From: Bacteroidota bacterium
GTDB lineage: Bacteria > Bacteroidota > Bacteroidia > Chitinophagales > BACL12
DNA: 64,000 nt
Reading direction: 5' to 3'
NCBI GenBank assembly: GCA_016124275.1
Contig: WGOA01000019.1
Location: 1-64,000, forward strand
Shown: in pieces, positions 44,770 through 64,000 of the stretch
How positions within the stretch are numbered: the first letter of the stretch is position 1
How the letters are laid out: every line of letters begins with the position of its first letter
Made by a program: the position numbers and the translations under genes
Notes under the pieces: model-generated
Database searches by the model: none
Told to the model about the DNA's origin: nothing
Seen by the model: the letters and a program-made list of their open reading frames with translations, nothing else

Positions 44770-47140
<2,371 letters not shown>

Positions 47141-51173: not shown

Positions 51174-51257
51174 ATGAGAGGTTATGGTATTGTATTAGCC
51201 CGGTTCTCTTTCTCTCTTTATCTCTTTCTCTCTTTCTCTCTCCTATGTATCCCCTAA
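51174..51257 (+). other. Out-of-frame signal-peptide ORF feeding the beta-helix gene
   Basis: ATG 51174 encodes MRGYGIVLARFSFSLYLFL and onward, a good signal peptide start, then hits TAA at 51255. It differs by 2 bases from the beta-helix frame. Removing one TC unit from the tract fuses it to MYPLNAQC, whose NAQ makes a natural cleavage site. Confidence 0.7.
51204..51243 (+). repeat. CT-rich microsatellite (candidate phase-variation tract)
   Basis: An almost pure TC/TTC tract, 40 bases with a single A (51220), lies inside the signal-peptide coding stretch. Changes of one dinucleotide alter the reading frame of the downstream gene. Confidence 0.85.
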
Positions 51258-53773
51258 ATGCCCAGTGCGATTTGCCTGTAGGGTGGGATCCTACCACGTT
51301 TGTGTACAATGTTTCAGCGTCTTCTTCCAGTATGCCAGCCACGTTAACCGCGGAGGATGTAGAAATTCAAACACCATTTGACATTGACCAGAATGCGACA
51401 TGGAGCAATTGCAAAGTTGGTGTAACAGACGGCGATGCCATTACCGTAAAGAGTGGAAATACTTTAGTGATTCAAAATGGCACTTTAGTGACCACTAAGG
51501 CGGACGCATGGTCAGGCATTGTTGTGGAAAATGGTGCTACGCTGGTTTTTGCAGGATATTCCATTATCTGCCGGGCTGAGACAGCCATCACGGTAAATAT
51601 TACTTCATCAGGTGATGTAACGGTTTCAAACTCTGATTTTATTCAGAATTACCGGGGAATGCTTATATCAGCCTACACGGCAGGCGTACATCCGGCAAGC
51701 ATTCAGGGTGCTCGTTTTTTCGGAGGATACCCTACGGCATTGCCTTCAGGTTTGCCAACAACCTATGGAAGTATTGGGCTAGAAGTAGTCGGCGTGAACG
51801 ACGGTGGTTCGCCAACAACACTAGGTTTAGTCGTTGGCAATCCTGGTGCAAATTGGAATTTGTTTCAGGATTTGGACCGCGGTATAGTAGCAACCAATAG
51901 TACGCTTTGGGTAAGACACACCGAATTCAAGAACATTTTTGATGTAAACCCTCCATTAACTGGGATTGGTATTCTTGGAGCAGTTCAAGGCACATCAACT
52001 CCGGATATGCTTATTGGTACTTCGGTTGCCAACTTGAACGTATTCGGCGATTGCCAGACCGGAATCCGGTTGACGGGTTTTAATGAGGTCACCATAACCG
52101 ATAATGTACTGAGTTTGGTTACCGGTGATTTTCATTCCGGCATTGAGGTCTTTGATACCCAGGGTGAATTGATCATTCGGGAGAACGACTTGTCGGATTT
52201 TGATGAGTCAGGTATTTATTTAGAAGATAACGGTCTTTCCTCATTGCTCGTGAAAGACAATGAAGTCTCCAGTACAGCAGTAGGTTGTACTATAACCGCC
52301 ATTGAACTGGTAGAGCCGATGGCGCCGGGAAGTGTGAGCTTCGCGGTGCGCGACAACATCATTGATGATGTCCAAATGGGCATAAGAGCTACAAATACCG
52401 AGGACATTGAGATAAGTGGGAACACAATTACATTTACCCAGCCCTTTGGTTGTTCTGGCGATTTGGCTTTCGGGATCCGGGTAGAAGGAGCTATAAATGG
52501 ATTAATTGAGGAAAACACTGCAGACGGTCTGTGTAGTGCCAGCAACAATCCAGAGATCATTGGAATAGCAGCCAGGAATTCTCCAGGTGTTCTGTTCCGC
52601 GCTGATACCGTCTTGCATTGCGGCTTCGGCTTTTTGGTTGCTGATGACTGCGAGGAAGGTAATGCAGTTTGTAATGTAGTAATAAACTGCAACAAAGGCT
52701 TTGGTTTCCAGAGTGTTGCCACCGGAGAAGAATTTGGCCCTGTAGAAAACGTCAGTTCAATGGGTGATCCAAGTGACAATGCATGGTTTCCTGCCTCCAC
52801 TGCAAACAGGACGTATACGTTTGCCATAACATTTGGTCCACCTTTTGTATGGTGGTATCGAGGTGCAGGCAGTACACCAGCTGCAGGAACCGAGCATGAT
52901 GCTAGCATTGACAATACCTCTGCGATGATGGGGGATGAAATTGCACCTCAACCTGTACTAAATGCAAACATTGACCTTTGCGGCCAAGTTATGTGTAGTT
53001 CTGGAGATTCTGAACGAGCCATAGCTCATTCGGTTATACCTACCTCCATCCTGAATAAGTTGCGGGAGGATTCTACCTTGAACACAGTTTCTAATTCATC
53101 TTACAGCTACTTGCAAGTCGCAAAGCTGAGGGGCCAGGATGAAACGGTTGTTACTCATTTGCTGTCATTGACCATCATTGCTGCCTTGGATGCTATTGAA
53201 AAACTTGTTCAGTTGAACGAATTGGAGAATGCTTCTATTGGTTTATCCACAATTTCTCCTATCAATACACAAGAAGACCTTCAAAAAGGGGTTTTGAGCC
53301 TACTTATTGCTGGGAAACAAGTACAGATGGAAACTTTTACGGCGGCGGAGCCTAGAGTGCTTTCATACCTAAGTAATGACCAGATTAGTGATTTAGAATC
53401 CATAGCAAGCCTGGATGCAACAGGGTATGGGATTGCAGTTCTTATGGCGAAAGCTATATTGGGCATTAATGATTGGAGCGTTGAAGGTTTTCTGGAAAAG
53501 GCGTTTAGTCAGGACGGATTAGTTTCGGATGAATTAAAGATTTATCCGAACCCATCCAAAGGCTTGGTGTACTTTGAAGCAATAGAGCCGATTGCTTTGA
53601 TTCAGGTTTTCGATGCACACGGTCAGTTGCAAATAGTTAGAAGTGTTACCTCTGAAATGGGCATTCATCATCTAGACCTCAGCAATTTGCAATCTGGCAT
53701 TTATTTAATCAACGCAACAGCATCAATTTCCAGTAAGGTGTTTAGTGCCACGCTGGTGATCGCCCCTAACTAA
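51245..53773 (+). CDS. Parallel beta-helix T9SS-secreted protein (currently out of frame with its signal peptide)
   Basis: 842 codons from ATG 51245. Repeated strand-turn units (VEISGNTIT-, DNVLSLVTG-, ENDLSDFDESGIYLEDN-like) mark a right-handed parallel beta-helix (PbH1), followed by a Cys-containing helical region and a T9SS sorting domain (YPNPSKGLV to SATLVIAPN). MYPLNAQC at the start has no complete signal peptide; the signal lies in another frame at 51174 (see that entry). AT-richer than its neighbours. It heads a two-gene module with the propeller gene at 53845. It is probably an adhesin or surface structural protein; role unproven. Confidence 0.8.
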   Translation: MYPLNAQCDLPVGWDPTTFVYNVSASSSSMPATLTAEDVEIQTPFDIDQNATWSNCKVGVTDGDAITVKSGNTLVIQNGTLVTTKADAWSGIVVENGATLVFAGYSIICRAETAITVNITSSGDVTVSNSDFIQNYRGMLISAYTAGVHPASIQGARFFGGYPTALPSGLPTTYGSIGLEVVGVNDGGSPTTLGLVVGNPGANWNLFQDLDRGIVATNSTLWVRHTEFKNIFDVNPPLTGIGILGAVQGTSTPDMLIGTSVANLNVFGDCQTGIRLTGFNEVTITDNVLSLVTGDFHSGIEVFDTQGELIIRENDLSDFDESGIYLEDNGLSSLLVKDNEVSSTAVGCTITAIELVEPMAPGSVSFAVRDNIIDDVQMGIRATNTEDIEISGNTITFTQPFGCSGDLAFGIRVEGAINGLIEENTADGLCSASNNPEIIGIAARNSPGVLFRADTVLHCGFGFLVADDCEEGNAVCNVVINCNKGFGFQSVATGEEFGPVENVSSMGDPSDNAWFPASTANRTYTFAITFGPPFVWWYRGAGSTPAAGTEHDASIDNTSAMMGDEIAPQPVLNANIDLCGQVMCSSGDSERAIAHSVIPTSILNKLREDSTLNTVSNSSYSYLQVAKLRGQDETVVTHLLSLTIIAALDAIEKLVQLNELENASIGLSTISPINTQEDLQKGVLSLLIAGKQVQMETFTAAEPRVLSYLSNDQISDLESIASLDATGYGIAVLMAKAILGINDWSVEGFLEKAFSQDGLVSDELKIYPNPSKGLVYFEAIEPIALIQVFDAHGQLQIVRSVTSEMGIHHLDLSNLQSGIYLINATASISSKVFSATLVIAPN

Positions 53774-53844: not shown

Positions 53845-55299
53845 ATGAAGGTTTTGCTTCTCACAATTTGGCTGGTATCCGTTGCCTTAGTTCAAGGACA
53901 GGATATGAGGGATCACTGGATTTTAGGAGATTCTATGCATTTAAAGTTTACAGATGCTGGCTTGGTATTTTTACGTCAGATTCCTTTTGAAGCAAGAGAA
54001 TCTCTATGTTCAATTTCAGATACATCAGGGAATCTGCTATTGTTTGCCCATGAGGGCATGGTATATGATTCATCATATAATGTTATCCCTGGTGGAGATT
54101 CTCTTTTTTTTCCTCCATTGAGTACCTCTTCAACACAGGGCGTTATTATTGTTCCATATTTAGATCATTTCGTCCATGTTAACAGAATCACATCGGGGTA
54201 CCCTGATGGGGTCTTGTCATATTCAATAATACAATATGATAGTTTATTAGATTCGTATTGTATTCCAGAAGGATCAAGGATGAAAATTGTTCAGCCTCAA
54301 CTTTTTGCAGAGCAAATGCAGGCAATCAAACATGCGAATGGAAGAGACTGGTGGTTTTTAGGACGTAAGTTGATAAATACTACTATACCTAGGAGTAATT
54401 CTTTTGTAGTTTATCTCCTTTCTTCGTCAGGACTGGAGTTAGTTCATGACATAAGCATTGGTATGGAATCTAACATTTGGGGTGAGTTAGCAACGAATTC
54501 AAATGGAAGTATGCTAGCCTTAGCCTCTTTTACCGGAATGCTGCAGCTTTTTGATTTTGATAGATGCACTGGTTTAGTAACGAATGCTAGGACGTTGATT
54601 AATGACTCAACTTCTACTTATTATGGTTGCGCTTTCTCGTCGGATGGAACAAAACTTTATATTGCTAAAAGCAATCGTGAGGTTTTAGAGCAAATTGATC
54701 TAAGCGAGAGTGCATTTCCCGTGTCAACAATTTTTTCCGCAAACTTTGGTTTGAATAATGGGGCTGGCCAACTGGAACTAGGACCGGACGATAAGATTTA
54801 CTGGATTCAGAGTGTTCAAAGTTTCATATTTGATTCTGTCCCTGCCATGTATTTAGGAGTTATCAATAATCCAAATGAGCCTGGCTTGTCCTGCAATTTC
54901 GATTTGGATGGCGTTTGGCTTGGAGGAATAGTTAACCGTCGAATAGGCCTCCCCAACCACCCCAACTATTATCTCGGCCCGTTAGTAGGTAGCCCCTGCG
55001 ATACCCTTATGGATCCGGACACCACCACCGCGATTCAACCGATCCATGTTGCTTCGGTAGAACCCTGTTTCGAGCTAAGAGCATCAGGCAGCGGATCAAT
55101 AACGCTGAAGATTGAGCCATCCTTTATGAATTCCACTATAGAGTTGTACAACAGCTCTGGCACGCAAGTCTTTACAGGACAGGTTAACACAACAAACAGT
55201 ATGTTAAGTACGGCTAGCTGGACACCGGGTATGTATGTCGCGCGTCTCCGTACGAGAGACGGAAGGTGCCCTGCTCAAAAGTTTGTGGTAGCACCGTAG
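53845..55299 (+). CDS. Beta-propeller-like T9SS-secreted protein, copy 1
   Basis: 484 aa. Signal peptide (MKVLLLTIWLVSVALVQGQ), then a body starting DMRDHWILGDSMHLKFTD with repeated propeller-like blades (LFDFDRCTGLVTNARTLINDS, GCAFSSDGTKLYIAKS, QLELGPDDKIYWIQ). It ends in a T9SS sorting domain (to KFVVAP). It is a close paralog of 56754-58220, which shares start motif and blades. The 3' third is nearly identical between the copies while the 5' parts diverge. Likely a surface or periplasmic protein of unknown ligand. Confidence 0.82.
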   Translation: MKVLLLTIWLVSVALVQGQDMRDHWILGDSMHLKFTDAGLVFLRQIPFEARESLCSISDTSGNLLLFAHEGMVYDSSYNVIPGGDSLFFPPLSTSSTQGVIIVPYLDHFVHVNRITSGYPDGVLSYSIIQYDSLLDSYCIPEGSRMKIVQPQLFAEQMQAIKHANGRDWWFLGRKLINTTIPRSNSFVVYLLSSSGLELVHDISIGMESNIWGELATNSNGSMLALASFTGMLQLFDFDRCTGLVTNARTLINDSTSTYYGCAFSSDGTKLYIAKSNREVLEQIDLSESAFPVSTIFSANFGLNNGAGQLELGPDDKIYWIQSVQSFIFDSVPAMYLGVINNPNEPGLSCNFDLDGVWLGGIVNRRIGLPNHPNYYLGPLVGSPCDTLMDPDTTTAIQPIHVASVEPCFELRASGSGSITLKIEPSFMNSTIELYNSSGTQVFTGQVNTTNSMLSTASWTPGMYVARLRTRDGRCPAQKFVVAP

Positions 55300-55350: not shown

Positions 55351-55443
55351 TGACCTCCCCCCAAGATCCTGTACTGTTTAAAAGTAGAGTTTTCGGGTAA
55401 CAAAATGCCGCATCTGACGGCCAAATTCTTAACCTTGTTACCC

Positions 55444-55710
55444 ATGAAGAAGTCCAAATTCACAGAGAATCAGATTGCCTTTGCCCTTCGCCAGGTGGAG
55501 GGTGGCATTCGCGTGGAGGAGATCTGTCGGCAGTTAGGGATCTCCCAGGCCACCTTTTTCAACTGGAAGAAGAAGTTTGGCAATATGGGCGTTAGCGAGT
55601 TGCGGCGCCTGCGTCAAATGGAAGAGGAGAATCGAATGTTAAAGAAGCTGGTTGCCGACCTAAGTCTGGACAAGCAAATGCTTCAAGATGTCATAAAAAA
55701 AAAGCTCTGA
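55444..55710 (+). CDS. IS3-family transposase OrfA
   Basis: 88 aa from ATG 55444 (MKKSKFTENQIAFAL). Helix-turn-helix (VEEICRQLGISQATFFNWKKKFG) and leucine-zipper-like tail (RQMEEENRMLKKLVADLSL). A run of nine As and a G at 55695-55704 near the stop is a programmed -1 frameshift signal, expected to produce an OrfAB fusion. Confidence 0.92.
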   Translation: MKKSKFTENQIAFALRQVEGGIRVEEICRQLGISQATFFNWKKKFGNMGVSELRRLRQMEEENRMLKKLVADLSLDKQMLQDVIKKKL

Positions 55711-55715
55711 AGCCC

Positions 55716-56552
55716 GTGTATCGCAGGCAGATGGCAGTTTGGCTCGAGGATCACTACCGGGTCTCTCTAAGGAGAGCCTGTTCAAGCGTGTTGTTGAGCA
55801 CCTCCTCGTTCTATTACAAGTCGCATAAACGCAGTGATGCCGCTCTTCGATTGCGGATCAGGGACATCGCTCAAACCCGGTTTCGGTATGGATTCAATCG
55901 AATCCTTATTCTGTTGCGGCGTGAAGGATTTTGCGATAATCACAAGCGCGTATACCGGATCTACAAGGACGAAGGCCTGAACCTGCGCAGTAAACGCCCC
56001 AGACGAAGCCGCAGTGCCGCTCATCGATTGGATCGAATGGAGAACTCAAGCATTAACCAAGCATGGAGCATGGATTTTGTTAGCGATGCCTTGTTTAACG
56101 GCAGTCGTTTCCGCATCTTAGCTGTAGTGGACAACTACAGTAAAAAATGCCTGAGCCTTTTGGTCGGAAAATCCTTGAAGGGCAGTGATGTCCGGGATGA
56201 GTTGGACCGGATTAAGTTAGTAGAGAATCAGGTGCCGGTCCGTATTCAGTGTGACAATGGCTCTGAGTTTGTTTCTAAGGAAGTGGATCGCTGGGCTTAT
56301 GACAACAAGGTTACCCTTGACTTCTCCAGGCCTGGAAAACCTACGGACAATCCTTACGTTGAATCCTTCAATGGTAAATTCCGGGATGAATGCCTATCGC
56401 CAAACTGGTTCATCAACCTGGAACATGCAACGGAGAAAATAGAAGACTGGCGATGGGAATACAATCACTTCCGACCGCACAGTTCTCTACAAGACCTATC
56501 ACCCATAGAATTTATAAATCATCACCAAATCTTATCCGAAACTCCAGTTTAA
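55716..56552 (+). CDS. IS3-family transposase OrfB (DDE catalytic part)
   Basis: 278 aa from GTG 55716; translated in practice as part of the OrfAB fusion, whose -1 frame stays open from the A-run. rve-type catalytic residues: Asp in WSMDFVSD, Asp in QCDNGSEF and Glu in NPYVESFNGKFRDE, with WEYNHFRPHSSLQ at the C-terminus. It appears intact, so the element may be active. Confidence 0.93.
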   Translation: MYRRQMAVWLEDHYRVSLRRACSSVLLSTSSFYYKSHKRSDAALRLRIRDIAQTRFRYGFNRILILLRREGFCDNHKRVYRIYKDEGLNLRSKRPRRSRSAAHRLDRMENSSINQAWSMDFVSDALFNGSRFRILAVVDNYSKKCLSLLVGKSLKGSDVRDELDRIKLVENQVPVRIQCDNGSEFVSKEVDRWAYDNKVTLDFSRPGKPTDNPYVESFNGKFRDECLSPNWFINLEHATEKIEDWRWEYNHFRPHSSLQDLSPIEFINHHQILSETPV

Positions 56553-56561
56553 TGCGTAACA

Positions 56562-56695
56562 GAGAATGGGAGAGGTTCACCACGTTGGTCGTTATTGACT
56601 TGAATGGCGCAGAAGCAGGGGTGTACATGGTAAAAGCTCGTTTAGCAACTTCACAAGAAGTTCTAAGCACAGTTTTCGTTAAAGTTGCAAACTAA
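56562..56695 (+). pseudogene. 3' remnant of a second beta-helix T9SS gene
   Basis: After the IS right end the frame continues as VVIDLNGAEAGVYMVKARL to VFVKVAN, which is the end of a T9SS sorting domain and similar to that of the gene at 51245-53773. The N-terminal body is absent. It precedes propeller copy 2 by 58 bases, as the intact copy precedes propeller copy 1 by 71 bases. Confidence 0.75.
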
Positions 56696-63022: not shown

Positions 63023-63061
63023 GGGGGGGGGAGTGAGGGGGAACTGCGAGGAAAAAAGGCC

Positions 63062-63172: not shown

Positions 63173-63272
63173 TAAGAAATAATTGGCTCATTTGAAATAG
63201 ATTTTTATTTTAATCACATTTAGGATATTGTTTACCATGTCCATATTATTGATTAAACAAAGGTTTCTATTT

Positions 63273-64000
63273 ATGGCATACCGACTTGGATTGGATATTG
63301 GCACCAGCTCCTTGGGCTGGGCACTTTTGGATGACAACCATATCGTGGATTGTGGGGTCCGCATTTTTGACATGGGCAATAAGGTTACCCAGCACGGGGA
63401 GGAGAGCCGCAGACGGGATCGCACTCTTGCCCGGAGCGCACGCCGGCGATTGCAGCGCTATAAGCACAGGAGAAAGAACCTGCTCGGTATTCTGGAAGAT
63501 CTTAATATGTTGCCTGATCCCAGTGAACTCAGCGATAGCTACAGGCTTTACCAATTACGCGCGCAAGCATTAGATCAGCAAATTTCACTTGCTGATCTCG
63601 GTCGAATTTGGCTGTATATCAACAAGAAGCGTGGCTTTAAGAGCAATGCGATTGTAGAGCGTTCCACAAAAGAGGACGGGGCTGTGGCTAAAGGTATTGC
63701 CCAGTTGAAATTGGACATGGCAGAGCACGGTGCCAGAACTGTCGGAGAATACTTTTTTGGTTTGAAGGCTGAACACCAACAAGGCAATTGGGAGCGCGGT
63801 CGGATTTTGGGCCATTGGATTGATCGCTCGCAGTACCTCGAAGAGTTTAACCTGATTTGGGAGGAGCAGAAGAAGTACTACCCCAACATCCTGACTACTG
63901 ATTTGCTCAAAATGGTTCGCGATAGAACGATTTTCTACCAGCGCAAACTGAAGTCGCAAAAGCATTTAATTAATAACTGTCGTTATGAAACCGATAAAAA
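63273..64000 (+). CDS. cas9: CRISPR-associated endonuclease Cas9, 5' part (runs off the window)
   Basis: 242 codons visible from ATG 63273 with no stop. RuvC-I motif RLGLDIGTSSLGWAL has catalytic Asp8; the bridge helix follows at about 45-75, rich in arginine (SRRRDRTLARSARRRLQRYKHRRK); then the YINKKRGFKSN segment at about 115-125 opens the REC lobe, as in compact type II-C Cas9. The HNH and PAM-interacting regions lie outside the window. It is AT-richer than the upstream core genes. The putative tracrRNA is directly upstream and divergent; cas1, cas2 and the array should lie beyond the window if the locus is complete. Confidence 0.95.
   Translation, partial: MAYRLGLDIGTSSLGWALLDDNHIVDCGVRIFDMGNKVTQHGEESRRRDRTLARSARRRLQRYKHRRKNLLGILEDLNMLPDPSELSDSYRLYQLRAQALDQQISLADLGRIWLYINKKRGFKSNAIVERSTKEDGAVAKGIAQLKLDMAEHGARTVGEYFFGLKAEHQQGNWERGRILGHWIDRSQYLEEFNLIWEEQKKYYPNILTTDLLKMVRDRTIFYQRKLKSQKHLINNCRYETDK

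Follow-up and report, generated by a model that had tools for sequence, protein, structure and literature searches.

A putative repeat-based switch at the signal peptide of a type IX-sorted beta-helix protein from an uncultured Bacteroidota

A gene encoding an 842-residue beta-helix protein in a Bacteroidota draft genome appears to be switched by a tandem repeat (phase-variable) and to belong to a family of surface proteins exported through the type IX secretion system (T9SS). We put the probability of this reading at roughly 70%; it is drawn from sequence, and slippage in vivo and reversibility are inferred. The gene occupies 51245–53773 on the forward strand of the window, the 64,000-nucleotide stretch of DNA analysed here, and lies in frame +2 relative to an upstream ATG at 51174–51176. 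That ATG opens a frame of 27 codons (51174–51257, +) reading MRGYGIVLARFSFSLYLFLSFSLLCIP and closed by the TAA at 51255–51257, which is the OFF frame in the present assembly.

Between the two starts runs a CT-rich tandem repeat of 41 nt (51204–51244, +) in which A 51220 is the sole purine. Tandem Repeats Finder describes it as 4.6 copies of TCTCTTTC with one interruption (93% match, score 67). Being almost entirely pyrimidine, the tract is free of stop codons in every frame, and each frame encodes a hydrophobic sequence rich in L, S and F. The first ATG of the beta-helix open reading frame (ORF), at 51245, lies 71 bases past ATG 51174 and yields no signal peptide; the N-terminal Sec signal peptide that starts at 51174 is out of frame and becomes complete only after a frame change. 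The preliminary description had placed a signal start at 51174, 2 bases out of frame across the tract, and had called the gene OFF; both statements agree with the 71-base spacing and with the TAA that ends the frame before it joins the beta-helix ORF. Its statement that the beta-helix frame has no signal peptide of its own needs qualifying. The frame is open back to 51134 and has no ATG, GTG or TTG from there to before 51245, so a usable start codon is indeed lacking, but the hydrophobic stretch VLFLSLSLSLFLSPMYPLNAQC is encoded across the tract in this frame too, and the start codon is the missing part.

Tract changes of −2, −8 or +16 bases each give MRGYGIVLARFSFSLYLFLS..PMYPLNAQC in frame with ATG 51174, whereas +8 or −16 bases do not join the two frames. 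Loss of a single TC, as first proposed, thus does fuse the frames at LNAQC, but uninterrupted TC extends for only about 7 nt at a time, which makes the octamer TCTCTTTC the likelier repeat unit, with −8 and +16 as equivalent outcomes; slippage of a TC dinucleotide as the sole mechanism was set aside. The period-8 self-match score is 21 for the real window; the highest value among 60 simulated windows of 64 kb is 10. The motif TCTCTYTCTCTCTYTC has a single occurrence in the 3.42-Mb genome and none in six relatives. The codons P-L-N-A (51251–51262, +) of ..SPMYPLNA|QC mark the region of the expected signal peptidase I site; cleavage there is inferred by comparison with paralogs, which have the A|Q junction in common (VDAQ, SNAQ, SDAQ, RAQC, QAQC).

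In the proposed mechanism, translation would begin at ATG 51174, with the array encoding the hydrophobic core of the signal peptide. At the present length it would end after 27 codons, and the protein would be either not made or not exported. A length change of 1 (mod 3), for example minus one octamer or one TC, would join the ATG to the beta-helix ORF, and the protein would then be exported through Sec, lose its signal peptide near NA|QC and undergo T9SS sorting. Mispairing of slipped strands as the DNA replicates would alter the array length and so produce reversible ON and OFF subpopulations. What speaks against switching is the array itself: its perfect part is 21 nt (2.6 perfect octamers), or 37 nt with one mismatch, and being short and interrupted it is the weakest switch of the set described below. 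The rate of slippage may be low for this reason, and the locus may be a slow or eroding switch. A scan of genome contigs found no second assembly of the species, and length polymorphism is thus not shown.

The protein itself has the sorting domain of T9SS cargo, as had been suggested. Pfam gives Beta_helix (3e-16) and Por_Secre_tail (9e-11), and TIGR04183 matches at 2.5e-10 with 40.2 bits, over the curated cut-off of 23. The T9SS type A C-terminal sorting domain spans 53540–53725 (+), its score of 38.6 bits over the cut-off, and the protein resembles other T9SS type A cargo (Por_Secre_tail/TIGR04183) in joining this domain to a right-handed beta-helix passenger. The presence of T9SS machinery is implied by at least 150 sorting-domain matches in the genome, the core genes being outside the basis of this inference. 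Surface location and display, and a role in adhesion or recognition, are likewise inferred; a PDB profile search with the beta-helix protein matched in the sorting domain only and gave no lead on function. Directly downstream, at 53845–55299 (+), lies a second gene for a secreted T9SS protein with an intact signal peptide (WILGD type, QDMRDHWILGDSMHLKF...). A WILGD-type T9SS gene also stands 3′ of the beta-helix gene at two paralogous loci on contig C22 and in genome G002 of another genus, which makes the beta-helix gene part of a recurring two-gene cassette. Farther along, an IS3-like transposase pair (55405–56695; orfA 55405–55710, orfB 55716–56552) sits between two paralogous WILGD-type genes, and the ORF at 56390–56695 ends in a readable remnant resembling a sorting domain, as if the element had landed in a WILGD-type gene.

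The genome contains seven other beta-helix homologs, two of them cut by contig ends; all five with a readable 5′ end carry a repeat near it. Two are adjacent paralogs on C22 with the same start. The first (C22:108.6k) has (AC)8.5 at +12 to +29 of its ATG, is in frame, and reads MKAATHTHTQNYAWVNWPSVFLMMCALLYSIGFSTPMRAQC from ATGAAAGCCGCA(AC)n. In the second (C22:103.2k) an (AC)10.5 array at +12 to +33 throws the start out of frame, reading MEAATHTHTHTDTEIRMG*, and an intact signal peptide and a 900-codon ORF continue in another frame. A 10-nt difference separates the pair across the CA array and its flanks, though they are not the same locus, and their arrays are the only two of (AC)6 or more (12 bp or more) in the 3.42-Mb genome. 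The CA tracts, 17 and 21 nt long, and the C9 and G9 tracts of relatives are of more typical length for switching tracts than the window array. A pairwise test (pS 0.76, saturated; pN 0.28) indicates that the CA paralog genes have been under purifying selection; being pairwise, it cannot by itself assign that selection to the OFF copy, and the support there comes from the intact frame, since both copies keep about 900 intact codons. The other three paralogs (C69, C45 and C66) carry G9, G9 and G8 in the 5′ untranslated region (5′UTR) about 45 nt upstream of the start, within a homologous 5′ region, where the repeat would act by tuning transcription or translation. In an alignment of that region, ATG 51174 falls on the start codons of C69 and C45 (GCC ATG MG). 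PolyG was rejected as a genome-wide signal: tracts of G8 or longer are frequent (185 overlapping matches), and most of those sampled look like GC-rich coding DNA. The polyG evidence was restricted to these three AT-rich 5′UTR copies and, given how common such tracts are, counts as the weaker evidence.

Repeats recur at this position outside the species. In G002, one homolog (C79) has (TCAAA)4.4 between the ATG and the hydrophobic core, in frame, and another (C81) has C9 there, out of frame, reading MKKQQSRSTPPHFCY*; no other C9/G9 tract occurs in G002. A homolog from another family of the order (G114:C43) has an in-frame C9 between ATG and core. Two G005 homologs lack any repeat at the 5′ end, which counts against the switch reading. 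Altogether, five paralogs and three homologs from two other genera share this location for a repeat that can shift the frame or sits in the 5′UTR; at least five types are represented, in mixed frames. In the window gene the repeat lies inside the signal-peptide core, and in the other genes with coding repeats it separates the core from a fixed start, so its length would decide whether an exported protein is produced. The six genes with coding repeats divide into three out of frame (the window gene, C22:103.2k and G002:C81) and three in frame (C22:108.6k, G002:C79 and G114:C43), as expected for snapshots of putative switching loci. A beta-helix gene without a signal peptide in a Saprospiraceae metagenome-assembled genome (L191) was not counted, as it has no repeat and its 5′ end looks truncated. 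Class-level matches are mostly larger multidomain proteins; four were inspected at the 5′ end, and a plain start nearby was seen only in G431, another family of the class, where a distant homolog (L230) has (GA)18(GT)5 at −172 to −126 of the ATG and was also left out of the count.

These mixed frames bear on the most serious alternative, that the frame break in the window is a one-off, caused by recent inactivation or by an indel introduced into the CT tract during sequencing or assembly, with the gene simply ON or dead. We consider this unlikely, yet it keeps some force: the genome is an unfinished draft (96 contigs, 93% complete), the window array is short and interrupted, and one paralog, C66, is truly decaying, with its start ATG lost and an internal TAA. 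Such an error or lesion would have had to spare an 842-codon ORF that is otherwise intact, among neighbouring window genes that read through normally. Moreover, C22:103.2k and G002:C81 are also out of frame exactly at different repeats in two genomes, where random error is improbable.

Whether such repeats are a general feature of T9SS genes was addressed with a control set from this genome: 80 further genes encoding a T9SS sorting domain, picked solely by sorting-domain score and scanned from −100 to +120 of the start. Arrays with units of 2, 4, 5 or 8 nt are absent from this span in all 80. Five have T8–9 tracts near the start, a point against the preferred reading, and one has an in-frame G9, which probably lies inside the gene. 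A further control gene (L146, G000:C7:53567-54717) has an in-frame hexamer, TTTATT in 3.5 copies, encoding the signal-peptide core (MRNVYLFLFLFFSYTW). Repeats at the 5′ end thus occur in 6/6 family genes against 1/80 controls (p = 1.5e-8), or in 3/3 against 1/80 when only independent repeat types are counted (p = 4e-5), so the repeats go with the beta-helix family and not with signal peptides or T9SS genes generally. Ordinary T9SS cargo genes of this genome, unlike the family, have a plain in-frame signal peptide without a frameshift-capable repeat. The claim of slipped-strand ON/OFF control gains support from the repeats of paralogs and homologs, from the homologous start and from this control, while length variation remains undemonstrated.

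The control also weighs against the idea, improbable in our judgement, that the repeats are neutral microsatellites drifting in loosely constrained n and h regions of signal peptides and in 5′UTRs, with no role in switching. The residues encoded by CT and CA repeats are tolerated in signal peptides, and the hexamer of L146 is an instance in another T9SS gene. Drift of this kind should not, however, have left 80 equally loose signal peptides of the same genome without such frameshift-capable repeats, nor does it fit the confinement of the genome's two CA arrays and its CT array to the beta-helix family or the recurrence of unrelated repeat types at one site across genera. Least credible is production of the protein at present by another route (a non-ATG start such as ATT, a frameshift by the ribosome within the tract, or reinitiation at ATG 51245 after termination): the open, hydrophobic upstream frame and the stop of the first frame about 10 nt past ATG 51245 would allow it, but that frame lacks ATG, GTG and TTG, the sequence before 51245 (CTCTCTCCT) contains no purine-rich ribosome site, the paralogs start at an ATG homologous to 51174, and a reinitiation product would be unexported.

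Extending the preferred reading, a phase-variable gene, to the whole family is a broader claim, and on it we are evenly divided: stochastic display of T9SS beta-helix proteins in which the export signal is split from its start, or the 5′UTR modulated, by any repeat available (CT octamer, CA, polyC, CAAAT or polyG), the type turning over among paralogs while selection keeps the position. Elsewhere in relatives, (AC)10 lies upstream of a lipoprotein gene (L097, G001:C337:8032-8051), and (AC)7 and (CAAAT)3 lie directly before the ATG of genes for putative secreted proteins (L091, G003:C406:16851-16864; L223, G005:C208:6075-6089). Given these repeats upstream of other exported-protein genes, the predicted switch may extend beyond the beta-helix family.

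Signal-peptide switching by slipped strands is textbook for pathogens with small genomes outside this phylum. Phase variation is presented as characteristic of small-genome pathogens in a recent primer (PMC11475388). In Neisseria opa genes, CTCTT repeats vary within the leader-peptide coding sequence, and each copy switches independently (PMC3745409). The window gene is similar in having a pyrimidine repeat within signal-peptide codons, a unit that is not a multiple of 3 and a multigene family. It differs in that opa encodes outer-membrane beta-barrels with a pentamer repeat, whereas here the product is T9SS-sorted beta-helix cargo and the unit an octamer; and where opa genes share one repeat, the sister genes here use CA, polyG, polyC or CAAAT. 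Helicobacter pylori oipA is turned ON and OFF by slipped-strand mispairing of CT repeats in its signal-peptide region (PMC10564699), a frame-based arrangement with a CT-rich 5′ repeat at the signal peptide like that in the window, but in an unrelated protein family and phylum; the window has an 8-bp repeat in only 4.6 copies, and its switching is inferred. The window protein shows no homology to the Opa or Hop outer-membrane beta-barrels, Pfam giving Beta_helix and Por_Secre_tail and the PDB profile search matching in the sorting domain only. By this comparison the family most likely works as opa and oipA do, with inferred slippage, on unrelated, non-homologous T9SS cargo.

No report of repeat-based phase variation with type IX secretion or in Bacteroidota was found in the literature searched; most subscription papers were outside its scope, so the absence of reports is weak evidence of novelty. 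It also leaves the preferred reading without a direct precedent in this phylum, which counts against it. Here an apparent switch occurs in T9SS cargo of an uncultured Bacteroidota, and unrelated repeats converge on a single position. If the reading is true, this would be, as far as the searched literature shows, the first slipped-strand phasome for type IX-secreted proteins; it would provide a sequence signature for finding phase-variable T9SS surface proteins and account for the pseudogene-like appearance of such genes, or their want of a signal peptide, in assemblies. Cell-to-cell variation of Bacteroidota surface display would then be testable directly from existing metagenome reads.

Other parts of the window hold further repeats. 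A perfect 29-bp direct repeat in 2.4 copies (47071–47140) lies at the end of an ATP synthase K-like ORF. A hairpin and T-run resembling a terminator (CCCCC..GGGGG TTTTTTTT GGGGGGGGG) immediately precede a G9 run (63023–63031). About 200 nt downstream of that run begins a Cas9-like ORF (MAYRLGLDIGTSSLGWALLDDNHIVDCGVRIF..., 63228–64000), which was identified by eye only and runs off the end of the window.
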